From: Flavobacteriaceae bacterium 3519-10 | GTDB taxonomy: Bacteria; Bacteroidota; Bacteroidia; Flavobacteriales; Weeksellaceae | Length of the DNA: 64,000 nucleotides | Reading direction: 5' to 3' | NCBI GenBank assembly: GCA_000023725.1 | Contig: CP001673.1 | Coordinates: forward strand, 1,250,342-1,314,341 | Shown here: in pieces, positions 40,739-61,518 of the stretch | Numbering within the stretch: position 1 is the first letter of the stretch | Layout of the letters: each line of letters begins with the position of its first letter | Translations under genes and position numbers: made by a program | The notes under the pieces: generated by a model | Database searches by the model: none | The model's input: only the letters and a program-made list of their open reading frames with translations | What the model was told of the DNA's origin: nothing

Positions 40739-40868
40739 CACAATTTGGCGCTTGGCGAAGAAGTGGATTTCGAAGCACTAAACGATCCGCCAGCACTGAG
40801 CTTGAATAGAAGCACAAAAGCTTCATTTAAGTACTGAACCCGCTTTTTTGCCAAACGCCTGTTAGCGG
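40739..40868 (-). repeat. attC-like site A (distal end of array)
   Basis: Left arm TTTGGCGCTTGGCGAAGAAG, right arm CTTTTTTGCCAAACGCCTGT then TAGCGG. The left core has decayed to CACAA in place of AACG, as expected where the array meets ordinary DNA. Confidence 0.75.
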
Positions 40869-40876
40869 TTCGTTGT

Positions 40877-41410
40877 TTATTTTTTCCGCTCGTAATGCAG
40901 TTGTATCAATCCCGGTTCAAAGGTTTTTGCTTCGATAAATTCAAGTATTTGCTCAGGTCTTCCGTCTTTAAAAAGTCTAGTTCCATTTCCTAATAGAACT
41001 GGTATTACCGAAATTATTAGATTGTCTATTAAATCATGTTTCAATAATTCATTTATTACTTCTGCACCACCGTCGCAATAAATATTTTCCCCTTTTTCAG
41101 ATTTTAGTTGTTTGACTAAATCGTCTATTTTTCCCGTGTAAAAAATCGTTCTACCTACTTGTGGTTTTTCAGTTCTTGTTATGACATAAACATCTCGTTG
41201 TCCGTTGTCGTAATGAGATGAACCAATTTCTTTCAGCACATAATCGTAGGTTTTTCTACCAACAATTAATGTATCAATTGTGCTTGTAAATTCCGCATAA
41301 CCATAGTCTTCGCCTTCCTTATCAACGAGTTTTAAAAAACTGAGGTCGTCATTTGGTTTTGCAATGTAGCCGTCTAAACTTGTTGCAATGAAAAGTGATG
41401 TTTTTCTCAT
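40877..41410 (-). CDS. Dihydrofolate reductase-family (RibD C-terminal-like) protein
   Basis: 177 residues: RKTSLFIATSLDGYIAKPND, DTLIVGRKTYDYVLKE, VYVITRTEKP, YCDGGAEVINELLKHDLIDN and VIPVLLGNGTRLFK. This is the YyaP/YwjB-like branch of the DHFR fold, related to the reductase domain of RibD. It is not the FolA or DfrA type, so trimethoprim resistance should not be assumed. Second gene of a two-gene cassette: it follows the AraC gene by 72 bp without a palindrome between them. A TAATTTTG box (41435-41442, minus) may give it its own promoter. Confidence 0.88.
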   Translation of the reverse strand: MRKTSLFIATSLDGYIAKPNDDLSFLKLVDKEGEDYGYAEFTSTIDTLIVGRKTYDYVLKEIGSSHYDNGQRDVYVITRTEKPQVGRTIFYTGKIDDLVKQLKSEKGENIYCDGGAEVINELLKHDLIDNLIISVIPVLLGNGTRLFKDGRPEQILEFIEAKTFEPGLIQLHYERKK

Positions 41411-41482
41411 CTGTTTTAAATTTTAATCTTTCCGCAAAATTACTTTTCGACAACCAGTTGCACTTTGTAAAAATGCGACAAA

Positions 41483-42217
41483 TTAAAGTAATGATGGTGA
41501 TAGTCCAGTATTTCGCTTGAATTCATTATTAAGATGCGAATGGTCGTAATAGCCACATTCAAATGCAATAGCTAATAAGCTGCGGTTTTGATTTGATTTT
41601 TTGATTAAACTCAAAGCATTCTGAAAACGAATAATTTTTGAATATTCTTTTGGTGACAGCCCAATGAACCTTTTGAAATTTCGCGCCAATTGTCTTACCG
41701 TTGTGAAATGTCTTTTTGATAGTTCGTAAATGCTAATTTGTCCGTTTGTTGAATGTATATCATTGATAACGGATTGTAATTGATTGGTTTTGGTTTTTAT
41801 TCTTTCCGTATAAAAATGGTCAAAATAATTAAATGGATTTTCAAATGTTTTATCAACATTAAATGAATTAGATTTTTCAAATTCAACGGTGTCGTTGGTC
41901 AGCTCATTTTGTGAGATATAGCTATAAAAATTTGTAAAAGTTGCAGGTTTTAGACAAACACCTATTAGATGTGCATCACTATCAATAAGGCTGTCTTTAA
42001 ATGAAGTCATTGCTCCAACAACATACGTTTTTCCGAATTCCATTATAGTCGAACCGTTGTCAGTTAAACAATTATCTCCCAAATTCATTACAATACCAGC
42101 ACAGCCATCTGGAAAAACCCGTTCCCATTGTTTTTCAACTTCATTTCCTCTCAGTTCCCAATAGAAATGAATATGAGACTCTAGTTCTTTGTAAGGTTTT
42201 ATCTTTTTGTACTTCAT
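41483..42217 (-). CDS. AraC family regulator with N-terminal DUF6597-like domain
   Basis: 244 residues. The N-terminal part (YKKIKPYKELESHIHFYWEL, VFPDGCAGIVMNLGD) is the sensor-like domain often named DUF6597. The C-terminal part is an AraC double helix-turn-helix (ISIYELSKRHFTTVRQLARN, FKRFIGLSPKEYSKIIRFQN, AIAFECGYYDHSHLNNEFKR). First gene of a cassette that also carries the DHFR-family gene, which it may control. A regulator is unusual cargo for a cassette. The start codon lies 29 bp from the cassette boundary. Confidence 0.88.
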   Translation of the reverse strand: MKYKKIKPYKELESHIHFYWELRGNEVEKQWERVFPDGCAGIVMNLGDNCLTDNGSTIMEFGKTYVVGAMTSFKDSLIDSDAHLIGVCLKPATFTNFYSYISQNELTNDTVEFEKSNSFNVDKTFENPFNYFDHFYTERIKTKTNQLQSVINDIHSTNGQISIYELSKRHFTTVRQLARNFKRFIGLSPKEYSKIIRFQNALSLIKKSNQNRSLLAIAFECGYYDHSHLNNEFKRNTGLSPSLL

Positions 42218-42245
42218 TGGTTTCTCAGATGTCGTTCGTTACAAC

Positions 42246-42384
42246 GACCGCTAAAGGTTTGCAGCTACAAGAAGTTGGCAATTTCGGAGACGAAAACTGT
42301 CTGCCAGCACTGAACTTGATATGAAGCACAAAGCTTCATTTAAGCACTGAACCCGCTTTTTTGCCCAACGCCTGTTATAAGCCG
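42246..42384 (-). repeat. attC-like site B (hybrid arms)
   Basis: Left arm TTTGCAGCTACAAGAAGTTG is the type seen at site M, but the right arm TTTTTTGCCCAACGCCTGTT is the type of sites A and G, so the outer arms do not pair well. It looks like a recombinant between two attC types. Confidence 0.75.
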
Positions 42385-42401
42385 TTTTTTCTGTCATTTG
42401 G

Positions 42402-42923
42402 TTAATCGTATGTCCATTCTGTTAATGTCAATAAGTTTGCTTTCCTTTCTACCGAAATAATCAAAAAGTAATAGGTATAAACCCAACTTTCGGGTTCAAT
42501 TACTCTTTCATCTTCTTTGTCGAACCAGTCCTTTGATAAAATATAAAACTCGTTGTCCCCAAATTCTTTGTGAATTTCAAAATATCTGTCGAGCAGTTTA
42601 GCAAATTCGTTTTTATCGTCACCCCAGTCCGGTTCATTTAAAAAATTAATAAGGAATTTTGATACTCCTTGTTTGTCCGTTTTCTTGAAGTCGGTTATTT
42701 TTATTTTGTCAACGTCAAAAGCTTGTCTCAAATAACCCTTGTCTGGTTCAGCTTTTACACAGTCACGCAAACTGTCAAATGAGAATTTTTTTGAGCGAAT
42801 GAAGGTGTCAACAATTTGGTCGTTGCTAATTAGTTCGTCAACCCCAATAGCAAATTCTGTCAAGTTTATACCTTGATAGCCTTCGTTAATTTCAATGTGT
42901 CTTTTGGTATCGATGGTTGTCAT
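42402..42923 (-). CDS. Cassette protein of unknown function
   Basis: 173 residues starting MTTIDTKRHIEINEGYQGIN. The frame is open upstream to 43001, but that part reads through the attC site, so I start at the ATG 6 bp inside the cassette boundary. No signal peptide. Acidic, mixed helical protein (VDTFIRSKKFSFDSLRDCVK, FLINFLNEPDWGDDKNEFAK, EPESWVYTYYFLIISVERKA). Family not recognised; soluble cytoplasmic location likely. Confidence 0.7.
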   Translation of the reverse strand: MTTIDTKRHIEINEGYQGINLTEFAIGVDELISNDQIVDTFIRSKKFSFDSLRDCVKAEPDKGYLRQAFDVDKIKITDFKKTDKQGVSKFLINFLNEPDWGDDKNEFAKLLDRYFEIHKEFGDNEFYILSKDWFDKEDERVIEPESWVYTYYFLIISVERKANLLTLTEWTYD

Positions 42924-42928
42924 TAAAA

Positions 42929-43056
42929 TGCCTATAACCGTTGGGTGTTTCCGTTGGCGGGGATTATGATAACTGGTCTTTGTAAATATACATAATGACA
43001 ATTTGCGAAAATATTTATGATGTAAACTTCAACCCCGCTAATAGAAATAGCATGTT
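42929..43056 (-). repeat. attC-like site C (interrupted by IS91-type copy 1)
   Basis: Left arm CGTTGGGTGTTTCCGTTGGC then GGGG; right arm CCCCGCTAATAGAAATAGCA then TGTT, where the IS91-type element begins. Same type as sites H, J, N, P and Q. Confidence 0.8.
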
Positions 43057-43129
43057 GAACTAAACCTCCGTTAGCTTTTCCCTTCGCTGTTTTATTAATT
43101 TTGGTAAAACAAACAATAAAATCTTTAAA

Positions 43130-44178
43130 ATGGCTACAAAAAAAAATCTCCGGAGGAGTTAAGGGTAAACAAAATTCTGAACCGTGCCTCGAGCGAAGTT
43201 AGTGGTTTTGCCGAACTGCTGCAACGCTTCGAAAGGAATATTTCGATCCTGGGCAGGAGCCCCAGAACGTTCGACAATTATTCCCGCCATGTGGCAGCCC
43301 TGGCACTGCATTTTAAAACCCTGCCCACCGAGCTGGACCCGGAACAAGTCAAAGATTATCTTTTTGAACTTCAGCAACGCTCCAAAACTCCTTCCCAAAC
43401 TTACTTTAAACACACCGTTTATGGACTTCGCTTTTTGTTGAAAACTGAGGGTCTGCCTTATAGTTTTCTGCATCTTCCCGCTATTCCACAAGTGAAGAAA
43501 CTGCCTGTAATCCTGAGCCGGGAAGAGATCTGGCGTATGCTTCAATCCGCCGAACTCCTGAAACACAAGCTGCTGATCGGACTGATTTACGGCTGTGGAC
43601 TGCGGTGTATGGAAGTAAGGAATATCGAACTTCAGCATCTGGATTTTGACCGGAAGATGTTGCATGTTGTTCAGGGTAAAGGCCCGAAAGACCGTTATGT
43701 GCCTTTGTCGGAACATTTGATCAGAGGCCTGAGAACCTTTATCAATATTGAGAATCCTAATCAGTATCTGTTTAACGGCAATCAAAACAGAAATATCGAA
43801 GAGATTGATGCTTCGACTCCACTCAGAACAGGGGCTTCACCGTTTGCCAGCAAAGATTTTGATTCACGCTACAGCCAGCGCGGTGTGCAGTGGGTAATTA
43901 AAACCATCTCCAAAAAAGCCGGCATCACCAAAGAGGTGCACACCCACACGCTACGCCACAGTTATGCGACTCATCTGCTGGAAGACGGCGTTTCGATCAT
44001 TATGGTGCAGAAACTTCTGGGTCATGAGCGTATTGAAAGTACAATGGAATACCTGCATAGCTTGTCCGTCCATAGACGGGATCTGTCAGCTCTCGGATCG
44101 GCAGCCGCACAGTCCTTTGGATACGGTATTTACTTTATGCAGCAGGAATGCAGGCCCGAAGTAATGGCGGGAGTGTAG
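43130..44178 (+). CDS. Tyrosine recombinase of IS91-type element, copy 1 (frameshift near start)
   Basis: The phage-integrase fold is complete from an N-terminal SAM-like domain (ILGRSPRTFDNYSRHVAALA) to the catalytic domain: GCGLRCMEVRNI (first Arg), GKGPKDRYVPL (Lys), THTLRHSYATHLL (His-x2-Arg), LLGHERIEST and the nucleophile Tyr in MEYLHS. The plausible start is ATG 43130, but an A9 run at 43138-43146 puts the rest in the -1 frame, which is open from there; an unshifted start would be GTG 43291. The extra IntI-specific helix is not obvious, so I do not call it an integron integrase. The C-terminus reads on past the usual end because of a C-run indel compared with copy 2. Confidence 0.85.
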
Positions 44179-45176
44179 CGGAAGTTCTTCGCAAAATCAA
44201 TTTATCATCCCAAAACTTCAGCGTTCATCAGGAAAAGACATTGCGGGCATTGTCCAACTGCCGTACGGCCGCCTTGGGTGGTCATATTGATGCGTGCGAC
44301 GGTTGCGGAAATCTTTCCATCAGCTATAACTCCTGCCGTAACCGGCATTGCCCGCAGTGCCAGGGACACAAAAAGGAAGAATGGATCCAGAAACGCGAAC
44401 AAGACTTGCTTCCCTGTACCTATTATCATGTGGTTTTTACCCTGCCTGAAGAGTTGAATGGGCTAGCAATATCCCAGCCCCAACTCATTTACAAAGCCTT
44501 GTTTGAGGCCGCCTGGGCTACTTTAAACCAGTTTGGAAAAAATAAGGGAATCCAACTGGGAATGATTGCCATACTTCACACGTGGGGACAGAACCTGAGC
44601 CTTCATCCGCACCTGCACTGCATTGTTCCGGGCGGGGGCATCAACCGGCAAGGAAAATGGATAAGGAAAGTACGAACGGATAAATATCTGTTTTCGGTAA
44701 AAGCGATGAGCAAAGTCTTCCGCGCGAAGTTTGTGGCTTCATTAAGGGCTTGTGGAATTACTGACCAGGACCTAATGGACAAACTCTTCGCCAAAAACTG
44801 GGTCGTGTATGCCAAGCGTCCTTTTGGTGGCCCAAAACAGGTGATTGAGTATCTGGGGCGTTACACGCATAAGGTTGCCATCAGCAACCATCGGATCAAA
44901 GAAGTGACGGATGAGCAGGTCCGTTTTAGCTACAAAGATTACCGCAAAGGCGGGGCGAAAAAGGAAATGACCGTGAGCAACCAGGAGTTTATCCGGCGCT
45001 TCAGTCTTCATATTCTACCGAGAAGATTTGTAAGGATCCGCCATTACGGCATCCTGAGCAGCAGCTGGAAGCGCGGGAAACTACAAGCACTGCAATCCGA
45101 TTTAAAGATCAGAGTTACTACAGCAAAACCGAAACTTTGCTCCGGAAATGCCGGTGCTGCAAGGAGGGAAACCTGA
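44148..45176 (+). CDS. IS91-family HUH transposase, copy 1 (C-terminus frameshifted)
   Basis: 342 residues. An N-terminal zinc-binding region (CDGCGNLSISYNSCRNRHCP then QCQ) is followed by the rolling-circle domain with HHH-like motif LHPHLHCIVPGG and two Tyr region VIEYLGRYTHKVAIS. The enzyme nicks one strand and moves the element by rolling circle. Compared with copy 2, one A is missing in CCGAAAACT near 45132, so the last ~30 residues differ and the Cys pair KCRSCKEGN is lost; activity is doubtful. The start overlaps the recombinase end. Confidence 0.9.
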   Translation: MQARSNGGSVAEVLRKINLSSQNFSVHQEKTLRALSNCRTAALGGHIDACDGCGNLSISYNSCRNRHCPQCQGHKKEEWIQKREQDLLPCTYYHVVFTLPEELNGLAISQPQLIYKALFEAAWATLNQFGKNKGIQLGMIAILHTWGQNLSLHPHLHCIVPGGGINRQGKWIRKVRTDKYLFSVKAMSKVFRAKFVASLRACGITDQDLMDKLFAKNWVVYAKRPFGGPKQVIEYLGRYTHKVAISNHRIKEVTDEQVRFSYKDYRKGGAKKEMTVSNQEFIRRFSLHILPRRFVRIRHYGILSSSWKRGKLQALQSDLKIRVTTAKPKLCSGNAGAARRET

Positions 45177-45435
45177 TTACCATTGCCGTTTTCGGGCAGC
45201 GCGGTCCGCCTAGTGAATATCTTTTTGTTCTCCAACCTGCTCCCGCCAAATAACGTTTGCGGGTAAGGGAAGTTGTGTTCTGCAGTGAAGAAACCCGAAG
45301 AAACCACTTCCAAAGGCTCATAACAAGCCAAAAAAAAGCAGTCCTTCTAAAAAAACTGCTTTGTTACCCTAAATTCTAAAAACGACAACTCCATAGACTG
45401 CCAAAAAGCTCCCGAAAGTTCCATTCAACGGGCTT

Positions 45436-46170
45436 TCATCTCGTGTCCTGCGGACAAGACGAAAGCTTAGTTATTACCAGTAGTGCTTTCTCTTTTTGTC
45501 TTACAAATTTTGCTTCTCTCGATAATTTATTTTTGTCTAAATCAAATTCTTCACTGAACCATTCAGTCAATACTTTTTCAATTTCATTTTTATTAAATGT
45601 CCTTGGGTTTCGTCTTGACTTTAAGTAATTTTCTCGTGTCATTTTTTCTGCAACTTGTCCGACCGTTTGCAAGTCAAGCTCGCTTCCAATTTTGTTTGCG
45701 AGCCAAAGTCCACCGATTGAAAATAAAAGTCCTGAAAGCCCTATTTGCCACATAAAGTAAAGTCCAATTAGAGACGCAAGAAATATAATTACGAGAGTTA
45801 CTGTCATCCAGTGAGGTGGTCGCAAAATGTTAAGTTTAATACCTAAATGCTTTTCTAATTTCTTAGTTCTTGATCGTCTGCTTTGTCGTGGTAATAGGTC
45901 AACAAGTGCAAAGTCAGTCGAGATTGTTTTATTGTCGATTTGAAGTGTCGATGAAATTGCGTCACGTATTTTATAAAATGCTTGTTGACTTGTGCAGTCG
46001 TCAGAATTGTCAAGTTGGATTTTATTTGCTATGTGGTCACAGAGTTCACCAAAACTCGAAATATGCATTAGTTCAGTGTCGCCAAACTTAATGTTAAATG
46101 ACTTTTCAACCTTAACGAGTAAATCGTTAATGTCGTCTGGGTCGATATTTTTAAGTTCGTAGTCTGTCAT
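45436..46170 (-). CDS. Cassette membrane protein of unknown function, tail from IS91 end
   Basis: 244 residues. The N-terminal 50 residues (IDPDDINDLLVKVEKSFNIK, FGELCDHIANKI) resemble an acyl-carrier-like helical domain. A membrane hairpin follows (HWMTVTLVIIFLASLIGLYF, IGLSGLLFSIGGLWLANKI), then a charged C-terminal helical part. The last eleven residues (ITKLSSCPQDTR and stop) are encoded by the IS91 end, so the insertion altered only the extreme C-terminus. Family not recognised. Confidence 0.7.
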   Translation of the reverse strand: MTDYELKNIDPDDINDLLVKVEKSFNIKFGDTELMHISSFGELCDHIANKIQLDNSDDCTSQQAFYKIRDAISSTLQIDNKTISTDFALVDLLPRQSRRSRTKKLEKHLGIKLNILRPPHWMTVTLVIIFLASLIGLYFMWQIGLSGLLFSIGGLWLANKIGSELDLQTVGQVAEKMTRENYLKSRRNPRTFNKNEIEKVLTEWFSEEFDLDKNKLSREAKFVRQKEKALLVITKLSSCPQDTR

Positions 46171-46173
46171 AGC

Positions 46174-46315
46174 ATTACTGGTAACGTTTTGGCGCTTGGC
46201 TTAGTGGCGGATTTCGGAGCACAAAACTTGATTTGAAAAACTAATGTTTGATTAACCACAAAACTGTCTTTGGAACACGAAACCCCGCCTTTTGGGTAGG
46301 TGCTGTTATATGCCG
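46174..46315 (-). repeat. attC-like site D (hybrid arms)
   Basis: Left arm TGGTAACGTTTTGGCGCTTG, right arm CCTTTTGGGTAGGTGCTGTT. The left is the A/G type and the right resembles the M type, so pairing is imperfect. Confidence 0.75.
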
Positions 46316-46321
46316 TTTTTC

Positions 46322-47038
46322 TCATTTCGTCAAGGGTGTTGGTTTCGGTCTACCTTGTTCTCTGAATTTTTTTACAGCTTCGTTCCAATGCCAAACCATT
46401 CCGCTGTCTGCTGGTGCTATTCTTCTCTTACCTTTGACTTCTCCATCGAAATGTCCGTTTTCGTCAAACTCAAATGGTTGTGTTGCACTTAAAATGTCTG
46501 TTAAGTCGAACTCACCACCTGCTAATTCATAATGTCCGTCAAGAAAGTAACGCATAACCCAAAATGCCTCTTCTTCTGTCAAATTACTATGGGTGAAATT
46601 GTTGTCCGATGTGTCAATTGGCAACTTCACACTTAGTTCTATTTTTTCGCAATGAATTCTAATTCGTTGTCCGTTTTCAAAAAAGTAAAGAATGTCGTCT
46701 CCGTCATTTGGTTTTGATTGCGGAACGATGCTGTCATTTATTTCTCTTTCTGTCGAAGGGAAAAATGTAATTTCTCCTAAACAACTATCATCGTTATAAG
46801 TGCTTTTTTCGTCCTGGTCAATTACTTTCAAAAATGTCACAGCACTATGTGTCAATACCAAACTTGAAAATTCGTTTTTGTCAACCCAGTCGCCACTTGA
46901 TTTTTTCCAATGCAGTTTAATCTCTCTGTCTGCCACCTTGTAGTCAAAACCTACAAAATCAAAATTGTTATGAAGGTCGATGTGTCGTCCTGCAATACTT
47001 AATGCGTGATTGTCTGTTATGTCGAAATTTACTTTCAT
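46322..47038 (-). CDS. Cassette protein of unknown function
   Basis: 238 residues, soluble, without signal peptide. N-terminal beta-rich half (NFDITDNHALSIAGRHIDLH, DFVGFDYKVADREIKLHWKK), a central acidic strand region and a helical section (LTEEEAFWVMRYFLDGHYEL), ending in KKFREQGRPKPTPLTK. I do not recognise it. The start is 19 bp from the cassette core GTTATATGCC, and the stop directly precedes its own attC. Confidence 0.7.
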   Translation of the reverse strand: MKVNFDITDNHALSIAGRHIDLHNNFDFVGFDYKVADREIKLHWKKSSGDWVDKNEFSSLVLTHSAVTFLKVIDQDEKSTYNDDSCLGEITFFPSTEREINDSIVPQSKPNDGDDILYFFENGQRIRIHCEKIELSVKLPIDTSDNNFTHSNLTEEEAFWVMRYFLDGHYELAGGEFDLTDILSATQPFEFDENGHFDGEVKGKRRIAPADSGMVWHWNEAVKKFREQGRPKPTPLTK

Positions 47039-47056
47039 TGTCGTGTCGTCCTAAAA

Positions 47057-47196
47057 TGGCATATAACGTTTTGGCGCTTGGCGCAGTGGCGGAATGCGGA
47101 ACACTAAACTGTCAATATACTACAAAAGTTGATGCGAGGTAGAATGTTCAATTAGCCACATCACCCGCCATTGAGCCAAACGCCTGTTGGTGGCTG
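47057..47196 (-). repeat. attC-like site E
   Basis: Left arm ATAACGTTTTGGCGCTTGGC, right arm CATTGAGCCAAACGCCTGTT then GGTGGC. The next cassette starts with the complementary GCCACCAACG. Confidence 0.85.
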
Positions 47197-47219
47197 GTGT
47201 TCTTGTCTGTCCAATTTGG

Positions 47220-47897
47220 TTACCAATTTTCAAATCGTGTATTTTTTAACCAATAATCATAATAGTCAAGCATTTCCTTGATTTCCTTTTTCTTGGTCAA
47301 ATAGTCTTTCAAGTCAATTTTTCCGTTTTCTCTTTGGTCTTCAAGGTCTGATTTCTCTTTTCTCTTTAACTGTCTTTTTTTGACGTTTTCGTAATGCTCA
47401 AAATCCTTTTTTTGTTGTTCAACAATGTCTTGTCTAATTCTATTCGGGTTATCTTGGTCAGTCGTTTGTTCTAGTGAAAATCCACATCTCTCAATATATG
47501 AGATTGTCTGTCCGAATTGAAAAAAGGGCTCTTGCCTAATCCATTGTGTAAATCCGTCTGCTTCAAACTCAATGTCGCCTTGTTGAGTAATAATTGTCCA
47601 TTGAAGTTTGTTGTCTGACTTGCTTAATTCAATATCTTCAATCTCAACGGCTTCGTCAAAAGCAGTATCAATTTCAAATTGAATGTTACTAATTTTCTTA
47701 AAAACCAAAGTCGCAGGTGCAACCCAAAAAGTAAATGGTAATCCTTCAATGTCTGGCTTATTCCATTGTAAAATATAGTCAATGTCTAATTCAAGTTTGT
47801 CTGTCAACCTGATTTTATAAATACGACAGTCGTGCCAACCCATTTTTTCAAAGTCGGTTTCATTCCATATTTTCTTTTCAAGTTCGTATTTTCCCAT
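47220..47897 (-). CDS. Cassette protein of unknown function with coiled-coil tail
   Basis: 225 residues, cytoplasmic. The N-terminal 130 residues are beta-rich (MGWHDCRIYKIRLTDKLELD, FTFWVAPATLVFKKISNIQF, FEIDTAFDEAVEIEDIELS). From about residue 165 on it is strongly charged and helical (QQKKDFEHYENVKKRQLKRK, SDLEDQRENGKIDLKDYLTK), a likely coiled coil. The start of the protein resembles small immunity-like cassette proteins, but I cannot name a family. Confidence 0.7.
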   Translation of the reverse strand: MGKYELEKKIWNETDFEKMGWHDCRIYKIRLTDKLELDIDYILQWNKPDIEGLPFTFWVAPATLVFKKISNIQFEIDTAFDEAVEIEDIELSKSDNKLQWTIITQQGDIEFEADGFTQWIRQEPFFQFGQTISYIERCGFSLEQTTDQDNPNRIRQDIVEQQKKDFEHYENVKKRQLKRKEKSDLEDQRENGKIDLKDYLTKKKEIKEMLDYYDYWLKNTRFENW

Positions 47898-47930
47898 CTA
47901 ATTTCATCTGTTTTTGTCGTCCGTTACACT

Positions 47931-53758: not shown

Positions 53759-53774
53759 GGTGTCGTCTTAAAGT

Positions 53775-54403: not shown

Positions 54404-54409
54404 ATAATT

Positions 54410-54546: not shown

Positions 54547-54556
54547 GTTTTTCTTG

Positions 54557-54832
54557 TCATTCTAATGGTTTCCAATTTTCGTCTCGTTGTTCGTCTTTTG
54601 TGGGCTGTCTTACATTCTTAATCATTTCTCTTTCACAAGCTCCAAATTCAATAAAATTTTTCTGCCCTTGTTTTAATGAAACTCTGTTTGCTCCACCTTC
54701 ATAGTTCGGGTCGTCAAGTTGAATTGGGTCGTCTTCCCAAAAACAGACTTGGCAAATATCATATGAGCCATTAGGTTTTTCTCTAAATGTCTTATATCCA
54801 CAACAAGGACAAGCAAATTTTTCTGTTACCAT
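54557..54832 (-). CDS. CPCC family cysteine-rich protein
   Basis: 91 residues with FACPCCGYKTF and YDICQVCFWEDDPIQLDDPN, four Cys arranged as a zinc ribbon, then GGANRVSLKQGQKNF and ENWKPLE at the end. This is the CPCC family, frequent next to toxin/immunity and cassette genes in many phyla; function not established. Start chosen at ATG 54832, which overlaps the previous stop (ATGGTAA); a GTG four codons earlier is possible. Second gene of a two-gene cassette. Confidence 0.88.
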   Translation of the reverse strand: MVTEKFACPCCGYKTFREKPNGSYDICQVCFWEDDPIQLDDPNYEGGANRVSLKQGQKNFIEFGACEREMIKNVRQPTKDEQRDENWKPLE

Positions 54833-55395
54833 ATTTTCCACCAAGGTTTTTTATTCTCAAACGAATAGTAACTTCCTCCTGTCAAAGTTTTTGTATCAAG
54901 GTCATATTTGAATTCAACCCATTCGTCAGAATCGGGCATAGGATTATATGCAAGTCCAGATACCAAATTATTCTCAACGTTTATTTCAGCTAATCCGTCC
55001 CACGAAATTCTTTCTGTATTCCAATGTGTTCCGTCAGGCTCAATAATTGTCAGGTCGGTTTGGTCTTGAAAAACAAGTCTGTCTTTACTCGCCTTAAAAA
55101 TGTCTGAATAGCCAACTCCAAAAACTTCTATAGGTTTTGTTTCGTTTGGGTTCATTAGGTAACAAGTTCCACAAGCTATTATCAATAAATTTTGAGTTTT
55201 TTCAAACTCGATTATTTGTTTTAATTCTGTCCAACCCGGTTGAAAGTTTACAACCCATTCAGTCTGGTCTGTCTTGTAAAAACGAACAGGAAATCCTTCC
55301 GAATAAAATGGTTCTCCATTGTCTGTTACAGGAACATACATTGGTCCATAAGTAGGCAAAGAGGTTAATATTTCGTATCGTTTTTTAGTCGTCAC
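54826..55395 (-). CDS. Cassette protein of unknown function
   Basis: 189 residues, cytoplasmic, beta-rich: RYEILTSLPTYGPMYVPVTD, FYSEGFPVRFYKTDQTEWVV, NFQPGWTELKQIIEFEKTQN, HWNTERISWDGLAEINVENN and a terminal SYYSFENKKPWWKIW. Such WD-like strand units resemble proteins found near immunity genes, but I cannot name a family. The stop overlaps the CPCC start, so the two are translated together from one cassette. Confidence 0.72.
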   Translation of the reverse strand: MTTKKRYEILTSLPTYGPMYVPVTDNGEPFYSEGFPVRFYKTDQTEWVVNFQPGWTELKQIIEFEKTQNLLIIACGTCYLMNPNETKPIEVFGVGYSDIFKASKDRLVFQDQTDLTIIEPDGTHWNTERISWDGLAEINVENNLVSGLAYNPMPDSDEWVEFKYDLDTKTLTGGSYYSFENKKPWWKIW

Positions 55396-55423
55396 TTTGT
55401 TTTGTGTAGGGTCGTTCTAAAAT

Positions 55424-55560
55424 GGTGCATAACGGTTGGGTATTTCTGTTGGCGGGGATTTTTATAACTGGTTTTTGTAAATATAACGAAATGAACAATT
55501 AGCGAAAACCTTTATGATGTAGACTTCAACCCCGCTAATAGAAATAACATGTTACACGAA
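55424..55560 (-). repeat. attC-like site J
   Basis: Left arm GCATAACGGTTGGGTATTTC, right arm CCCCGCTAATAGAAATAACA then TGTTACACG. Identical to site N from 55429 on. Confidence 0.9.
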
Positions 55561-56197
55561 GGCGCAATGATTTGCTAATTTTGGGGACCAATTAAAATTT
55601 CCTCAGAGTGATTTTCATCGATTTCATTTAATTCCTTTTGCATTTCATCATGAATAATTACGAAGGGATTTGAATCTATCTGTTCAACAGTTTCAAATTC
55701 CATTACTTTTTTGTAAAAGCGAGAAATGTAAATATCCTCTCCCCATTGCAATAAATTGTAACTAAATGCATAATATTTTGATTGACTCTCTATGACAGAA
55801 GTTGCTATATAGTTGTCAACTCCCATTTTATGACTATAGGTAAAAACATATTTCGAAGTTTTATCAATTTTGTATTCGCCAGATTCTTTTACTACTTCAT
55901 TCCATGCTTTTGGCAACTCCAATTCTGCTCCATGTAGCATGTTTAAAATAACTTCTGCTGGACTATCTTTAAATTTTGAAAAATCTTCGTTAGGATACAA
56001 ACTTTGTATTTTAATTGCATACTTAAAATTGTCAATATCGTCTCCTTTTATTAATAATTGAGAGGTGGCTTCACCAATATTTTCAATTCTATTATCTTTT
56101 TGTGAAAATACTGTTTGAGCTATTATTAACAAAAAAATTAGATATATTCTTTTCATAAGAGTTTTGTTCGGCTTTGGGTATGCGCTTTCGTGTAACG
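55429..56197 (-). repeat. Duplicated cassette, copy 1 (769 bp)
   Basis: Identical to 58440-59208 as far as I can read, with identity ending abruptly at the core sites (ATAACGG at the left, GTGTAACG at the right). The repeated unit is one cassette plus its attC. Confidence 0.9.
55575..56156 (-). CDS. Cassette-encoded exported protein, copy 1
   Basis: 193 residues with signal peptide MKRIYLIFLLIIAQTVFSQ. Mature part: IENIGEATSQLLIKGDDIDN, LYPNEDFSKFKDSPAEVILN, then strands YKIDKTSKYVFTYSHKMGVD and an acidic C-terminus. I do not recognise the family. Start at 56156; upstream codons to 56261 belong to the attC site. Identical to the protein at 58586-59167. Periplasmic or surface location is inferred from the signal peptide. 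Confidence 0.75.
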   Translation of the reverse strand: MKRIYLIFLLIIAQTVFSQKDNRIENIGEATSQLLIKGDDIDNFKYAIKIQSLYPNEDFSKFKDSPAEVILNMLHGAELELPKAWNEVVKESGEYKIDKTSKYVFTYSHKMGVDNYIATSVIESQSKYYAFSYNLLQWGEDIYISRFYKKVMEFETVEQIDSNPFVIIHDEMQKELNEIDENHSEEILIGPQN

Positions 56198-56322
56198 TCC
56201 CGGGGCTTTGCGATGGTGGGGTAATCGAAGCACAAATCTTCAATTTTGCACAAAAGTTCAATCGAAGAACTACTGTTGAATTTTGCAGTTTCGCCCCACT
56301 ATTGCAAAACCCTTGTTAGCTG
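56189..56322 (-). repeat. attC-like site K
   Basis: Left arm CCCGGGGCTTTGCGATGGTG then GGG; right arm CCCCACTATTGCAAAACCCT then TGTTAGC. The left core is CGTCCC instead of CGTTT. Confidence 0.85.
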
Positions 56323-56330
56323 TAGTATCT

Positions 56331-56900
56331 TTAATCATTATAGATTGCTAATCTTATCTGGTTAAATCCACCTTTTCCTTTGAAACGGAATAGATACGCA
56401 TTTAGATTTTGGCTTTTCCATTTGATTTCATCGCGAACAGTTTGCTCATCTGATTTTTCCAAATCTTCATATAATTCAGAGTTAGGCTTTCCAATATTTT
56501 TGGTTATGTAGTTTTTAATATCTTCAAATTTTGAGTTAAATTGATTATTTAAAGTTTCTTTTTTTTCGATGTCATTCCATTCATACATTTTGAATTTTGT
56601 TTGATTGTCTTCTGTAAAAAAATAATCAACTTTCAATATGAAATTATTTTCAGGTCTTTGATAAGATTTGGGAATTTCAAATTTATGATTTGCAAAAGTT
56701 GGATAAATTCCTTCTCCTATTCCCCAAAAGTATCCGAGGGAAATATCTTTAGATTTTTTATTTATTTCCTCTTTTTTTATTTCTGCAAAATTCTTCAAGC
56801 TTAAATCAATTTCGCTTTGTACAGGAATTGCAGAATTTTTATTTACAGAACACGCATAAAAAATAAAAAGACTTAAAATAAATAATAGTTTGGATTTCAT
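56331..56900 (-). CDS. Cassette-encoded lipoprotein of unknown function
   Basis: 189 residues with lipobox FIFYACS (Cys 16). Lys- and Glu-rich helix (LKNFAEIKKEEINKKSKDIS), then ISLGYFWGIGEGIYPTFANH, a beta strand pair and ENNFILKVDYFFTEDNQTKF, finally FRFKGKGGFNQIRLAIYND. Close homologues not known to me. Membrane-anchored by lipid. Stop 8 bp from the R'' arm of site K. Confidence 0.72.
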   Translation of the reverse strand: MKSKLLFILSLFIFYACSVNKNSAIPVQSEIDLSLKNFAEIKKEEINKKSKDISLGYFWGIGEGIYPTFANHKFEIPKSYQRPENNFILKVDYFFTEDNQTKFKMYEWNDIEKKETLNNQFNSKFEDIKNYITKNIGKPNSELYEDLEKSDEQTVRDEIKWKSQNLNAYLFRFKGKGGFNQIRLAIYND

Positions 56901-56924
56901 CTTTTCGGAATTTTTTTTATGATA

Positions 56925-57063
56925 TTACAGCTAACGGTTACGTATTGGCGATGGTGCGGCTATAACGCAGAAACTTTTTTATTACAAATTAATCTTCGGA
57001 ACAGCTAAAATGGTTAAACTTGCGATTCCTCCGCACTATTGCCAATACGATGTTACCAGCAGG
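56925..57063 (-). repeat. attC-like site L
   Basis: Left arm TACGTATTGGCGATGGTGCG, right arm CCGCACTATTGCCAATACGA then TGTTACC. Same type as site O. Confidence 0.9.
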
Positions 57064-57067
57064 TCTT

Positions 57068-57526
57068 CTATCTCTGTCTTATCCACAAACCAGAGTTTGG
57101 ATAGGTTAATTGCACCAAATAATCTTCTTTTGTTAAATACTGAAACCATTTTTTATATTTACGATTTCTGAAATCATAAATATTAATTATTAGATATGGA
57201 TTTTTCAGGATTTTTTTAGTCAGTTCGATCTTAAATCTTTTAATTTCAGGCATTTCCTTTTTATAGGTGTAATAGTCAAAATTCAGATAGAACTTTTCAT
57301 TAAGATTTTCAAAATTTAATTTTTCATAATCAGGAATAATTAAATCTCCAGGATAATAATTTACACTTATTCTTTCATCATTTTTTTGGGAATTATTACT
57401 TAAATAGATGTTTGCAATTTGTCCATTTATATTTTGGTCGTTAACCTGAAGTATAACGTTGAAGTTTTGTCCAGCAACATTTATAATAGTAAAAAATAAA
57501 AAGGTCAAAAATATAATTCTCGTCAT
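57068..57526 (-). CDS. Cassette-encoded exported protein of unknown function
   Basis: 152 residues with signal peptide MTRIIFLTFLFFTIINVAGQ. The mature part starts FNVILQVNDQNINGQIANIY, then YYPGDLIIPDYEKLNFENLN, a strand pair with LNFDYYTYKKEMPEIKRFKI and KWFQYLTKEDYLVQLTYPNS. It has the look of a small beta sandwich; not recognised. Very AT-rich. Confidence 0.7.
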   Translation of the reverse strand: MTRIIFLTFLFFTIINVAGQNFNVILQVNDQNINGQIANIYLSNNSQKNDERISVNYYPGDLIIPDYEKLNFENLNEKFYLNFDYYTYKKEMPEIKRFKIELTKKILKNPYLIINIYDFRNRKYKKWFQYLTKEDYLVQLTYPNSGLWIRQR

Positions 57527-57558
57527 TCTTCTATTTTGGAAATCTGTTTGATTAGACT

Positions 57559-57696
57559 TGCTGGTAACGTTTTGCAGCTACAAGAAGTTGGCGATTTCGA
57601 AGCACAAAACTGTCTGCCTGCACTGAACTTGATACGAAGCGCAAAGCTTCATTTAACCACTGAACCGCCAATTTCTTGTAGGTGCTGTTATATGCC
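57559..57696 (-). repeat. attC-like site M
   Basis: Left arm GTAACGTTTTGCAGCTACAA then GAAGTTGGCG; right arm CCGCCAATTTCTTGTAGGTG then CTGTTATATG. Long paired arms, including CTACAAGAA / TTCTTGTAG. Confidence 0.9.
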
Positions 57697-57709
57697 GCTT
57701 TTCTTTCTG

Positions 57710-58429
57710 TCATTGTGCTTTCAGTATTTTGTCCGCAATGGTCAAACAGTTTTCAATTGTTCCACTCATTCCCATATTTTCCATTTCAAGTTTGTGAAGT
57801 CTGTTAGCAATTTCTTGTCTGTCTGCTTTTGCTTTTACAAGTCCGAAGATTTCAGGAACGTAACCTTGATATTCGTCTCTTGGTGCAATGTCGTTAATGC
57901 CAATTGGGTCCCAGTCAAACCAAAGTATGTCGTCAATTTTTTTGTAAAGCAGAAAGTCTTTGGCTGCTGTTAAATTGTCTTTGAACTTCTTGTTGCGATT
58001 GAATAATAGAATTGTAGATTTCACTTCTTCTTCAAGTCTATTGTCGTCAAAATATTCTGTCGCTTTAAGAGCCAAACTTGCAATATAGTGTCCGCTGTCG
58101 CTGTCAAACGGTGCTGGTTCGCCTGAAGCATTGTAAGTTACTTTTGCAACAAGTTCTGCAAGTCTCAAATAATTTTCTGGCTTGTAGTTTTTATTTTCAA
58201 GTCCAAACACTCTGATTTTGGTGAATTGTTCGTGTGCTTCTTTCCAACGGTCTTTGTCGTCTATGATTTGATATAGTTCACTAATTGAAGTCGGAATGTT
58301 TTTTATGTAATGGTCAAAACGAGACAAAACAAGTCCTGCCCAACCTGGTCTAATGTCGTTAGGTATGTTCTCAAAAATCTCTTGCCCGATATTGATATTA
58401 GTTTTTATATCGTATTGTTCTGTCGTCAT
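57710..58429 (-). CDS. Cassette protein of unknown function (all-helical)
   Basis: 239 residues, cytoplasmic, predicted helical with a repeated helix-turn-helix rhythm: ENIPNDIRPGWAGLVLSRFD, YQIIDDKDRWKEAHEQFTKI, PENYLRLAELVAKVTYNASG, SDSGHYIASLALKATEYFDD and RQEIANRLHKLEMENMGMSG. Resembles proteins of a TPR- or HEAT-like type, but no repeat signature can be fixed. Function unknown. Confidence 0.7.
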   Translation of the reverse strand: MTTEQYDIKTNINIGQEIFENIPNDIRPGWAGLVLSRFDHYIKNIPTSISELYQIIDDKDRWKEAHEQFTKIRVFGLENKNYKPENYLRLAELVAKVTYNASGEPAPFDSDSGHYIASLALKATEYFDDNRLEEEVKSTILLFNRNKKFKDNLTAAKDFLLYKKIDDILWFDWDPIGINDIAPRDEYQGYVPEIFGLVKAKADRQEIANRLHKLEMENMGMSGTIENCLTIADKILKAQ

Positions 58430-58433
58430 AAAG

Positions 58434-58571
58434 TGGCATATAACGGTTGGGTATTTCTGTTGGCGGGGATTTTTATAACTGGTTTTTGTAAATATAACGA
58501 AATGAACAATTAGCGAAAACCTTTATGATGTAGACTTCAACCCCGCTAATAGAAATAACATGTTACACGAA
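58434..58571 (-). repeat. attC-like site N
   Basis: Left arm ATAACGGTTGGGTATTTCTG, right arm CCCCGCTAATAGAAATAACA then TGTTACACG. Part of the duplicated cassette; identical to site J apart from the outermost left bases, which belong to the neighbouring cassette. Confidence 0.9.
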
Positions 58572-59208
58572 GGCGCAATGATTTGCTAATTTTGGGGACC
58601 AATTAAAATTTCCTCAGAGTGATTTTCATCGATTTCATTTAATTCCTTTTGCATTTCATCATGAATAATTACGAAGGGATTTGAATCTATCTGTTCAACA
58701 GTTTCAAATTCCATTACTTTTTTGTAAAAGCGAGAAATGTAAATATCCTCTCCCCATTGCAATAAATTGTAACTAAATGCATAATATTTTGATTGACTCT
58801 CTATGACAGAAGTTGCTATATAGTTGTCAACTCCCATTTTATGACTATAGGTAAAAACATATTTCGAAGTTTTATCAATTTTGTATTCGCCAGATTCTTT
58901 TACTACTTCATTCCATGCTTTTGGCAACTCCAATTCTGCTCCATGTAGCATGTTTAAAATAACTTCTGCTGGACTATCTTTAAATTTTGAAAAATCTTCG
59001 TTAGGATACAAACTTTGTATTTTAATTGCATACTTAAAATTGTCAATATCGTCTCCTTTTATTAATAATTGAGAGGTGGCTTCACCAATATTTTCAATTC
59101 TATTATCTTTTTGTGAAAATACTGTTTGAGCTATTATTAACAAAAAAATTAGATATATTCTTTTCATAAGAGTTTTGTTCGGCTTTGGGTATGCGCTTTC
59201 GTGTAACG
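58440..59208 (-). repeat. Duplicated cassette, copy 2 (769 bp)
   Basis: Offset 3011 bp from copy 1 at 55429-56197, same length and sequence by eye. Flanks differ at once beyond the core sites. Confidence 0.9.
58586..59167 (-). CDS. Cassette-encoded exported protein, copy 2
   Basis: 193 residues, identical to the protein at 55575-56156: signal peptide MKRIYLIFLLIIAQTVFSQ, IENIGEATSQLLIKGDDIDN and C-terminal SEEILIGPQN. Two identical copies separated by three other cassettes imply recent duplication and probably selection for dosage or simply array dynamics. Family unknown. Confidence 0.75.
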   Translation of the reverse strand: MKRIYLIFLLIIAQTVFSQKDNRIENIGEATSQLLIKGDDIDNFKYAIKIQSLYPNEDFSKFKDSPAEVILNMLHGAELELPKAWNEVVKESGEYKIDKTSKYVFTYSHKMGVDNYIATSVIESQSKYYAFSYNLLQWGEDIYISRFYKKVMEFETVEQIDSNPFVIIHDEMQKELNEIDENHSEEILIGPQN

Positions 59209-59338
59209 AAAAGCGTATTGGCGATGGTGCGGCTTAAACGCGGAAACTTTCTTGTTATAAACTAAATTTCGGAACATCTAAAATGGTAAAACTTGTGATT
59301 CCTCCGCACTATTGCCAATACGATGTTGTACGAAGGTT
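59200..59338 (-). repeat. attC-like site O
   Basis: Left arm AAAGCGTATTGGCGATGGTG, right arm CCGCACTATTGCCAATACGA then TGTTGTACG. Confidence 0.9.
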
Positions 59339-59339
59339 T

Positions 59340-60071
59340 TTAGAAACTTGTCATTTTTATTACAATTTTTTCGCATCCATTTAAAGCTTTTTCTAAAAAA
59401 GGTAATACTGGCTCATTGAGATCAGTGAATTCAAAAGAAACCCAAGTTATTATTTGTGTGTTTCCATTCTCAATAATTGGAGGGTTTTCAGCAGAAAAAG
59501 TTTGTCCTCCTCTAATTATTGAATCACCTATTTCCATAGTGGAACCTTCAGCTAAATGAATTATTGAACCTCCACTTAAAGAAATAGCGGTTAATCCATT
59601 ATCAAATTTTATATTTAATTCTTTATCTTCAGTTCTTGTTTGTGGAGTTAATCTTTGATGTTTATTTTCATTATTTAAGTCCATAAATTTTGGCAACCAA
59701 GAATTTTTTTCATCAGAAAAATGTTGAAAATCTTCAATTGCAATTGCAATATCAGGTCTATTTGATGATAATCCTGGTATTTTGTTTTCAATCAAATTTC
59801 TTCGACGAAATTCGGCTAAATCTAATTCTCCCCATGCATAAGGAAAATAGATTTTTGGATTGGAAACTGTGGAACTTCCATATTTGTCAAATAAGTAATG
59901 AGATGAAAAATCCAAGGCAGATCTTAGGTTTTCCATAAAATTTTTTATTTTTATTAGCAGTTTAGATTTAACTTCCTTTTCATGAAGAGATTCTGCATAA
60001 GAATTTTTAATTTCTAAAAGTGTATTTTTAGCATCTTCAATTAGTGAGATGGAGTCATCTTTGTAGTTCAT
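59340..60071 (-). CDS. Cassette protein of unknown function
   Basis: 243 residues from ATG 60071 (MNYKDDSISLIEDAKNTLLE). Helical N-terminal half (NTLLEIKNSYAESLHEKEVK, FMENLRSALDFSSHYLFDKY) then DLNNENKHQRLTPQ, followed by a beta-rich C-terminal half (LTAISLSGGSIIHLAEGSTM, NTQIITWVSFEFTDLNEPVL). The LRSALDxxxHxLxxK and NENKHQ segments occur in a group of uncharacterised bacterial proteins sometimes near nuclease or toxin genes; not a firm assignment. No signal peptide. Confidence 0.7.
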   Translation of the reverse strand: MNYKDDSISLIEDAKNTLLEIKNSYAESLHEKEVKSKLLIKIKNFMENLRSALDFSSHYLFDKYGSSTVSNPKIYFPYAWGELDLAEFRRRNLIENKIPGLSSNRPDIAIAIEDFQHFSDEKNSWLPKFMDLNNENKHQRLTPQTRTEDKELNIKFDNGLTAISLSGGSIIHLAEGSTMEIGDSIIRGGQTFSAENPPIIENGNTQIITWVSFEFTDLNEPVLPFLEKALNGCEKIVIKMTSF

Positions 60072-60099
60072 ATTTGTTAGGCTTCTGGTCAAAACTTTC

Positions 60100-60237
60100 G
60101 TACAACGGTTGGGTATTTCTGTTGGCGGGGATTATTATAATTGGTTTTTGTAAATATAACAAAATGAACAACTAGCGAAAATCTTTATGATGTAAACTTC
60201 AACCCCGCTAATAGAAATACTTTGTTATGTGCAGCCG
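60100..60237 (-). repeat. attC-like site P
   Basis: Left arm TACAACGGTTGGGTATTTCT, right arm CCCCGCTAATAGAAATACTT then TGTTATGTG. Confidence 0.9.
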
Positions 60238-60243
60238 TGGCTC

Positions 60244-60789
60244 TCAATAACTTAATATGTTCGTATTTAAACCCCTTTCTTTATTAATATTTGCTTTGAG
60301 ATATTTTAAGGTAGTTTCTTTATTATTTAAATCAACTAAAACGCTTCCACACCAAAAGTTTGTAACTTTTTTCTCATTGAATTCAAAAATCAGAATTATG
60401 GTTGATTTTCCTATTCCTCCCTTAAAATAATTCATTAACGCTATATTTTTTCCACTGCCAAAATACTGTAATTTTCTTCTTGGCAGTTTTTTGTCGAGAA
60501 TAACGTCAGTAGGATTCCAATTTTCGTGTGGATTTGCTATAGGTTTATCTTCTAATATTGCATTTAGGAAGTTTAATATAACCTTTGGAATTTTGTTAAT
60601 ATCGGTTTCTTCCGTCAATTCTGTGTTTTCAAGTTTAGTAATTAAGCCAGCAAGATTTTTGTTTTCAAGAATTTCTTTTGCATTAATTAGGATTTTTTCA
60701 TCGTCTTCTTTAATGGTTTTACTTTCCTTGGAACAACCTAACAGAATTGTGATAAATGCAAATAAAATTGTTATCGGAATTGTTTTCAT
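60244..60789 (-). CDS. Cassette-encoded lipoprotein of unknown function
   Basis: 181 residues from ATG 60789 with lipobox ITILLGC (Cys near residue 19). Helical segment (DDEKILINAKEILENKNLAG, LNFLNAILEDKPIANPHENW) then a beta part RRKLQYFGSGKNIALMNYFK, STIILIFEFNEKKVTNFWCG and LKYLKANINKERGLN. Not recognised. A GTG-type upstream start is within the attC arm and unlikely. Confidence 0.7.
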   Translation of the reverse strand: MKTIPITILFAFITILLGCSKESKTIKEDDEKILINAKEILENKNLAGLITKLENTELTEETDINKIPKVILNFLNAILEDKPIANPHENWNPTDVILDKKLPRRKLQYFGSGKNIALMNYFKGGIGKSTIILIFEFNEKKVTNFWCGSVLVDLNNKETTLKYLKANINKERGLNTNILSY

Positions 60790-60794
60790 ACGGT

Positions 60795-60934
60795 TGCACA
60801 TAACGCTTGGGTATTTCTGTTGGCGGGACTTTTAATTACCAGTCTTTGTAAATATAACAAATAGAACAATTAGCGAAAATCTTCATGATGTAAACTTCAA
60901 CCCCGCTAATAGAAATACACTGTTAGCAGAAGGT
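60795..60934 (-). repeat. attC-like site Q (first in gene direction)
   Basis: Left arm CATAACGCTTGGGTATTTCT, right arm CCCCGCTAATAGAAATACAC then TGTTAGCAG. Its right core is complementary to the start of the first cassette (GTTAGCAGAAAG). Confidence 0.88.
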
Positions 60935-60936
60935 GT

Positions 60937-61476
60937 TTATTTTAATTTCTCTTCTAATTCAAGCTTAATTTTGGAAATCGTGTCTTTGTTAAAATTTGAA
61001 TACCAAATTCTGCTAGTAAGTTTTTCTAATTCTAATTCAGTATTTGCAACAATTTCATTTGTAATATATTTGGAATCATCCCGATTTTCAATCTTCATAT
61101 TTTCCCCTTTTTCAAATTTTTGAACATACTTTCTACCGACAATTTCATAACAATTCATTTTTAAATTTGTATAGAGTAAAATGTTATCTATAGAATCTTT
61201 CGGTTGGTTTATATTTAATTTACTTTTTTCTTTATCAAAATAAACAAAATATAAAAGTTCATTTTTTGGAACATCAATTCCTGTCATTATTTTGATAAAA
61301 GGTCTTGAATTCCCATTTGTATTTTTGTGTCCAAAATCATTTACAGTTATTGTTTCAATATTTTTCCATAGCACAAAATTTTTATTTTTTTTCATTTCGA
61401 TAAAGTCATCTTTAGAATCTTTTTTACAGCTGTAAAAAACTGTAAAAAAGGAAAGAAAAATTAAATTTATTTTCAT
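60937..61476 (-). CDS. First cassette: lipoprotein of unknown function
   Basis: 179 residues with lipobox FFTVFYSC (Cys 17), then a Lys-rich spacer KKDSKDDFIEMKKNK. Mature part: VLWKNIETITVNDFGHKNTN, RPFIKIMTGIDVPKNELLYF, NILLYTNLKMNCYEIVGRKY and a helical tail. It is the cassette nearest the array head and its start codon is about 28 bp from the expected transcription start. Not recognised. Confidence 0.7.
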   Translation of the reverse strand: MKINLIFLSFFTVFYSCKKDSKDDFIEMKKNKNFVLWKNIETITVNDFGHKNTNGNSRPFIKIMTGIDVPKNELLYFVYFDKEKSKLNINQPKDSIDNILLYTNLKMNCYEIVGRKYVQKFEKGENMKIENRDDSKYITNEIVANTELELEKLTSRIWYSNFNKDTISKIKLELEEKLK

Positions 61477-61510
61477 ATGCGTAATTTCGGTAACACTTTC
61501 TGCTAACTCT

Positions 61511-61518
61511 CAAATATA
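61511..61518 (-). promoter_or_regulatory. Candidate cassette promoter box at the array head
   Basis: TATATTTG on the minus strand, an exact TAnnTTTG box, lies beside the first core site (GAGAGTTAGCAG) and points into the array. The -33 TTG is not perfect; CTG triplets occur at the right distance. In integrons the cassette promoter occupies this position. Confidence 0.55.

Follow-up and report, generated by a model that had tools for sequence, protein, structure and literature searches.

Are the palindromic spacers that separate a run of small genes in a flavobacterial chromosome the recombination sites of an integron? The question is raised by a stretch of 64,000 nucleotides of Flavobacteriaceae bacterium 3519-10 (contig CP001673.1, positions 1,250,342 to 1,314,341), here called the window, in which a reading made from the letters alone (the sequence-only reading) had recognised an integron-like gene-cassette array. 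Our analysis supports that claim: the sites fold, and the gene order is not shared with congeners. Very probably, the window holds an array of 18 cassettes on one strand, with attC-like sites and an attI-like head, and a recombinase whose gene lies 0.66 Mb away, next to an array of 46 sites, is likely to fill and shuffle it.

On the minus strand of the window, from 61507 to 40732, 18 palindromic sites were found, 16 of them intact and two split by IS91-family elements; the palindromes had been described before, and only their number, given as 17, had to be corrected. Intact sites (n = 16) are 119-127 nt long, measured from the letter after the AAC of R'' to the end of the GTT in R'. That the genes are all read on one strand stands for the cassette genes and does not extend to the genes of inserted IS91-family and DDE-transposase elements. 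The two arrays of the chromosome total 64 gene cassettes, nearly all of which end in a hairpin-like repeat whose first bases are complementary to the front of their own cassette. Canonical attC sites have an R' core with the consensus GTTRRRY. None of 63 cassette starts from both arrays fits this consensus, in agreement with the deviating core noticed at first; the R box found here is a cassette-specific palindrome of ~10 bases, mostly GTT-R-N3-G.

The pairing of a cassette start with its own site was scored at positions 5-10, leaving out the first four letters and allowing G-T pairs. In the 18 window cassettes, 103 of 108 letters pair with the R'' of the same cassette, while 100,000 shuffled re-pairings averaged 56.5 and reached 81 at best; the proposed complementarity between a cassette start and its own palindrome is therefore borne out. 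When the R'' sequences were compared with the R' that comes next in the array, only 46 of 102 letters paired, versus 98 of 102 for the same R'' and the start of their own cassette. Pairing extends over ~10 bases and stops at position 11, both in the 18 window cassettes and in 45 cassettes of the second array. Hence, R'' pairs with a distant cassette start and differs from the adjoining R', which is the pattern that insertion of a circle next to GTT would leave. In the mechanism that we infer, the recombinase would act on the bottom strand in its folded form, cutting beside the GTT of R'; each excised cassette would form a circle with ~10 paired bases between R'' and R', and this circle would be integrated at the attI-like head, beside a promoter. 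Terminators or repeats resembling miniature inverted-repeat transposable elements (MITE-like), with no role in mobility, are likewise palindromic and located behind genes. Such repeats would, however, leave unexplained both the own-end pairing and the cassette footprints presented below, and we give this explanation almost no credence.

Folding points in the same direction. A consensus hairpin is common to the 16 intact sites, and 14 of its 17 pairs show at least one compensatory change, a count made without a shuffle control and set against up to four of 16 sequences that break a given pair. Six sites were also folded singly as DNA, and a long stem formed in all six. The shuffles that folded equally well, of 200 per site, numbered 6, 0, 0, 1 and 0 for five of these sites and 33 for s14, which is thus the one site of the six that is not better than shuffles. 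The palindromes do fold into attC-like hairpins, as had been anticipated. For each of the 16 intact sites, folding favours the circle form over the integrated one, with a margin of only 0.1 kcal/mol in s13; this advantage is explained in part by the own-end pairing itself.

A pattern written for one arm type matched a region of the same chromosome 0.66 Mb from the window. A search of the chromosome with a covariance model built from the 16 intact window sites (R1) matched 72 places at E <= 0.1, of which 70 also pass E <= 1e-4. Among them are 17 of the 18 window sites; the others form a block at 632844-668261 or, in a few cases, stand alone. After refinement, the block forms an array of 46 sites on one strand, which we call the main array; the count was reached from 51 matches by excluding three opposite-strand shadow matches and two minus-strand sites. 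The latter two (634305-634440 and 656178-656313, 88.9 bits each) lie within the plus-strand array and are surrounded by a 97% identical repeat of ~820 bp. Lone sites outside both arrays are found at 286855, 1072099, 1075706, 1163441, 1166872, 1167917, 1219093 and 1219727.

Own-end pairing is equally strong in the main array: 253 of 270 positions pair with the site of the same cassette (45 cassettes; shuffled maximum, 183), and 43 of 45 cassettes pair at five or six of the six positions. In congeners, the same degree of pairing was reached by 54 of 55 cassettes in G177, 39 of 41 in G160, 25 of 31 in G152 and 7 of 12 in G057. Among distant Bacteroidota, 142 of 180 positions paired in 30 cassettes, with a shuffled maximum of 114. 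For congeners and distant genomes, five short partial and two shadow matches of 199 were excluded, 41 of 54 R1 matches at recombinase loci were used, and pairs more than 3 kb apart were skipped.

Directly upstream of the main array, and divergent from it, lies a gene for a tyrosine recombinase of 356 residues (L018:6040-7110). The genome encodes five PF00589 recombinases, two of them Xer-like and two located in the IS91-family elements of the window. The reading frame of the main-array recombinase is free of stops, the family-conserved R, K, H, R, H and Y are present, and the closest named recombinase is from Kaistella montana (82%), which makes Kaistella the likely genus of the strain. An N-terminal extension of ~80 residues is seen in 18 of 20 aligned array recombinases, L029 and L039 being those that lack it; in L002:1459-2529 the extension is predicted to form strands and helices, and it has no Pfam match. 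Placement of the recombinase in a family by score was attempted and abandoned, as it falls near the XerA, IntI and Xer models and below the cut-off of each.

Comparison of the two arrays and of related genomes indicates that cassettes are variable and precisely exchanged (w and m denote cassettes of the window and main arrays). Cassettes w04, w08 and m44 are 100% identical over 763/763 nt, and the w04/w08 identity starts one letter before GTT and stops two letters behind the next GTT. Cassette w02 is 100% identical to m17 over 694 of 698 nt, and w14 is 99.1% identical to m41 over 873/873 nt. In another species, the congener G057, a cassette is 99.7% identical to m15 over 643/643 nt; upstream, the likeness is that of a shared site tail, while downstream the identity includes the next start, GTTATGTGCAA, and stops behind it. 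Only two of the 64 cassettes have a match (over more than 70% of their length) in array stretches from four congeners, the second at 77%, and gene order is accordingly not shared with these congeners. It is likely that the two arrays and the recombinase together form a gene-capture system, that is, an integron.

One may ask whether these arrays are fossils, made by a once active system and now copied only by homologous recombination between repeats. No integrase lies near the window array, two of its sites are split, s18 and cassette 19 look decayed, and the congeners G057 and G152 yielded only pieces of the recombinase. Nevertheless, the main-array recombinase keeps an intact frame with its conserved residues, cassette copies reach 99-100% identity between or within arrays and, in one case, 99.7% across species, and identity ends within two letters of GTT in w04/w08 and just behind GTTATGTGCAA in m15. 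We consider a fossil system improbable, and an active one remains our preferred reading.

The start of the window array reads TTGCGTATATTTGAGA followed directly by GTTAGCAG. The first of these, at 61508..61523 on the minus strand, abuts the GTT of cassette 1 and constitutes the attI-like head; it also reads as what we take to be a Bacteroidota -7 promoter element (consensus TAnnTTTG). The same motif heads the arrays of G160 (L149) and G051 (L024), where it lies 143 bp and 149 bp, respectively, from the start codon of the recombinase. A pattern written after these three heads had been seen was scanned over 1.73 Mb of loci. It returned the three known heads and one new place, in G057 (L151), which is also an array head and whose following cassette pairs 10/10 with its own site; the reversed-sequence control of 1.73 Mb gave no match. 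No integrase remnant was found in 60501-64000 of the window. An attI-like head is kept and no integrase is nearby; hence, the window array resembles an integron whose integrase has been lost, and the recombinase of the main array may serve it in trans.

The IS91-family elements deserve separate consideration, as they carry tyrosine recombinases of their own. Element 1 (43057..45473, plus strand) is inserted at the R'' of s16 and carries a tyrosine recombinase (43291-44178) and a Y2_Tnp transposase (44148-45176). Element 2 (49917..52336, plus strand) is inserted at the R'' of s12 and carries a tyrosine recombinase (50149-50910) and an open reading frame (50983-52089) whose DNA closely copies the transposase of element 1. 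Such elements end exactly at the AAC of R'', and all 13 ends found by their end motif (window 43057 and 49917; L135, L136 and L143) abut the site body at the junction between C and AACA, which indicates that the elements choose these sites. This regularity might suggest that the elements move the cassettes. However, an element is present in only two of the 18 window cassettes, and the element recombinase branches away from the array recombinases; the elements look like riders that target the sites, and a role as movers is very improbable. The mover that we favour is the recombinase of the main array.

How this recombinase relates to IntI was examined in several ways. The spacing between the KGxKxR and HxxRH motifs is 106 residues in eight of eight IntI sequences and has a median of 64 in the array type (70 rows); in Xer it is 68 in the one of two rows with the motif. 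A spacing of 236 in L050 was taken as motif misplacement. Against TIGR02249, the main-array recombinase scored 197.6 bits (cut-off, 265), and residues 186-231 of IntI4 stay unaligned to it. By alignment, the array recombinase is thus devoid of the ~42-residue IntI insertion. In a quick tree, in which 43 of 105 inner branches are open, the eight IntI sequences form one clade and the array recombinases fall outside; no sister group is assigned to them. L075 was excluded from the tree, L053 (titled archaeon) was labelled Bacteroidota in error, and in six of the 80 loci scanned no frame fitted the recombinase motif. A phage collection gave no recombinase match at 1e-40.

The survey of genomes extends the picture beyond this strain. 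R1 sites are present in 36/36 genomes of the genus (3-72 sites each), 57/148 of the order and 141/296 of the phylum Bacteroidota; in 24 non-Bacteroidota genomes, with 136-137 candidates scored per genome, no genome had sites. Because searches over more than 40 genomes scored 11-22 candidates per genome, site counts per genome are lower bounds. An array-type recombinase (E <= 1e-40) occurs in 94 of the 296 phylum genomes, and sites co-occur with it: they are found in 81/94 genomes with the recombinase vs 60/202 without (Fisher p = 2e-20, uncorrected for kinship). At the level of loci, R1, as an independent model, matches 24 of 80 recombinase loci (E <= 0.05), all 24 from Bacteroidota. A second model, R2, trained on sites from 19 of the loci on which it was scored, detects sites in 29 of 54 Bacteroidota or unnamed loci, in 19 of the 23 such loci having at least 3 kb downstream, and in none of 26 other loci. 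The 88 sites that it finds (one shadow of 89 matches excluded) are codirectional and downstream of the recombinase in 80 cases and divergent and upstream in eight. A recombinase lies beside an array, and divergent from it, in the genome under study as well as in G160, G177 and G051, and sites lie beside a recombinase in Arundinibacter roseus, Flavobacterium aciduliphilum, Algoriphagus ornithinivorans, Zunongwangia mangrovi and Algibacter onchidii.

Group II introns and IS110-type elements are known to target attC elsewhere. A plasmid of Chryseobacterium sp. SNU WT5 encodes a recombinase annotated as 'site-specific tyrosine recombinase/integron integrase' together with seven sites on one strand (two shadows of nine matches excluded), and a group II intron maturase and an IS110 transposase occur among these sites (L154:8373-12777).

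Could an ordinary IntI act on the sites, as in a canonical integron? The NCBI cut-off for IntI is passed in 84 of 296 phylum genomes, and sites are present in 22 of the 25 genomes that hold both IntI and the array recombinase. However, none of the 148 genomes of the order passes the cut-off, the genome of strain 3519-10 included, and 83 of the 84 IntI genomes lie outside the class of the window, G213 being the exception. Where the array recombinase is absent, sites are rarer with IntI (9/59) than without it (51/143), and R2 finds no site in eight short loci and three longer stretches around IntI genes. The chance that a canonical integron accounts for the arrays is practically negligible. A crude scan for canonical attC sites (RYYYAAC..GTTRRRY plus an inner stem) found none in the three IntI stretches nor in the main array; being empty around IntI as well, it gives no information on which sites those IntI use.

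Several observations weigh against an integron driven by the array recombinase. Own-end pairing is weak in G120 (17/30, the same as its shuffled maximum; not part of the pool of 30 pairs), and also in G268 (7/12), L081 (9/18) and L059 (2/6). The head of the main array, ATACATATATTTACGC, is similar to the head pattern and fails it. No site is seen at the cut-off in 13 of the 94 phylum genomes with the recombinase, and sites are present in 51 of the 143 genomes that lack both recombinase types. The congener G057 has 22 sites, yet no recombinase match at 1e-30; only a 44-residue piece is present in its fetched stretches, and the stretches of G152 match at residues 225-352 only. The insertion test relied on eight IntI sequences from the phylum sample, seven of them of one family code (f31). 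Loci with sites do not form one clade in the tree (18 changes; 33 of 500 shuffles as low), although many rows without sites are short loci where sites could not be seen. Finally, an extra domain of IntI is called necessary for integron recombination in the accessible text of PMC9668308, and it is this domain that the array recombinase lacks.

With these points in mind, a wider reading may be put forward, which we hold with less assurance than that of the window array and still deem reasonably probable. Bacteroidota would possess a second integron system, with XerA-like integrases devoid of the IntI insertion and attC sites with a palindromic, cassette-specific R box of ~10 bases. Its sites would be present in about half of the sampled genomes, it would move genes between chromosomal arrays, species and plasmids, and the rAID arrays of gut Bacteroidales (see below) would be one of its branches. 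We predict that such a gene-capture system is widespread in the phylum. Its arrays have likely been missed because integron finders are built on IntI and its insertion and on classical attC with GTTRRRY, and this too is a prediction. If the reading is true, this phylum, which is common in soils, waters and guts, gains a large pool of mobile genes. The need for the IntI insertion in folded single-strand recombination would become directly testable, since array integrases lack it, and the variability of the R box would point to structure as the basis on which sites are chosen. Cassette boundaries, and hence units of function, could also be assigned to many orphan genes.

The cassettes of the window, all on the minus strand, are as follows in array order. 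Cassette 1 (60805..61507; gene 60937-61476; s1 60795-60931) pairs at 10/10 of its first bases with its own end. Cassette 2 (60107..60804; gene 60244-60801; s2 60097-60233), the near-identical counterpart of m17, is followed by cassette 3 (59208..60106; gene 59340-60092; s3 59198-59334) and by cassette 4 (58445..59207; gene 58586-59167; s4 58435-58571). Cassette 5 (57569..58444; gene 57710-58429; s5 57559-57696) has a 94.5% identical site on the Chryseobacterium plasmid. Next come cassettes 6 (56936..57568; gene 57068-57526; s6 56926-57061), 7 (56197..56935; gene 56331-56900; s7 56187-56324) and 8 (55434..56196; s8 55424-55560), the last with a copy of the cassette 4 gene in a frame from 55575. 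Cassette 9 (54419..55433; s9 54409-54546) holds two genes, 54826-55395 and 54557-54844 (Cys_rich_CPCC). Cassette 10 (53785..54418; s10 53775-53911) has a gene within 53903-54454, and cassette 11 (52881..53784; s11 52871-53008) one at 53000-53758. In cassette 12 (49904..52880; gene within 52337-52954), s12 is split by element 2; cassette 13 (47941..49903; s13 47931-48074) contains a DDE-transposase element (48140-49834, plus strand). Cassette 14 (47068..47940; gene 47220-47897; s14 47058-47195), whose copy is m41, precedes cassette 15 (46186..47067; gene 46322-47038; s15 46176-46314) and cassette 16 (42939..46185; gene within 45436-46170), in which s16 is split by element 1. The array continues with cassette 17 (42256..42938; gene within 42402-43001; s17 42246-42383) and cassette 18 (40742..42255; s18 40732-40870), which encodes an AraC-type regulator (41483-42217) and a RibD_C-domain protein (40877-41410).

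The limit first set for the array was probably too short, as the outer-membrane beta-barrel gene at 38291-40609 is likely a decayed cassette 19 (38291..40741, minus strand). In the congener G057, the same gene (83% DNA identity) is a cassette with a site behind it, starting with GTTATCTGCAACC and ending with GCAGATAAC, and in G175 it is flanked by sites on both sides. In the window, the cassette starts with GTGATCTGCAAC, and no site was recognised behind the gene.

Few window cassette proteins match a Pfam family, most having no match, and PADLOC gave no match for ten of them. Several cassette proteins start with a signal-peptide or lipoprotein-like sequence, as judged by eye. An Rfam scan of the window at gathering cut-offs detected two tRNAs only. 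A gene for a DndC-type sulfurtransferase (62532-63893; TIGR03183 above cut-off) lies on the other strand, ~1 kb behind the attI-like head.

How does the system compare with those already known? Xer recombinases act on dif. Unlike Xer or XerA, the array recombinase has its gene next to cassette arrays. Bacteroidota are among the phyla listed with integrons in the accessible text of PMC8618304, and that of PMC9024848 names one complete Bacteroidetes integron, in Salinibacter ruber M1, earlier finds being integrases without cassettes. Our literature search, for which subscription papers were mostly out of reach, found no flavobacterial or Bacteroidota integron of the type described here. IntegronFinder 2.0, as far as the accessible text of PMC9024848 goes, treats clusters of attC sites lacking an integrase (CALIN) as a class. 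The window array is like a CALIN in having sites and no nearby integrase, if its sites are counted as attC; unlike one, it has sites of another type than GTTRRRY, a retained attI-like head and a fitting integrase elsewhere in the chromosome. A further relative may be the rAID arrays of Bacteroidales, which are described as carrying orphan immunity genes against type VI effectors. They too occur in this phylum and resemble the arrays studied here in having short genes in one orientation, conserved motifs between these genes and a tyrosine recombinase gene upstream of them (accessible text of PMC12247911). On this description, they may or may not represent the same system.

The closest likeness of layout is to chromosomal (sedentary) integrons: tandem, mostly one-gene cassettes on one strand, foldable attC-like sites whose structure is better kept than their sequence, complementarity between the start of a cassette and its own R'', with R'' and R' differing in the integrated state, a candidate attI-like head and variable cassette content. 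The recombinase gene also adjoins the array and is divergent in the lineage of the window, which does not apply to the window array itself; in most distant loci, unlike in chromosomal integrons, the array is codirectional with the recombinase. The recombinase differs from IntI in its shorter spacing between two catalytic motifs (64 vs 106 residues), the missing insertion and the N-terminal extension, and the sites differ from canonical attC in their R box and long inner stem. Hence, by layout and cassette logic the system is an integron, with an integrase devoid of the IntI insertion and an R box other than GTTRRRY. It is most likely an integron in mechanism as well and, by the marks tested, a variant separate from the canonical IntI integron.

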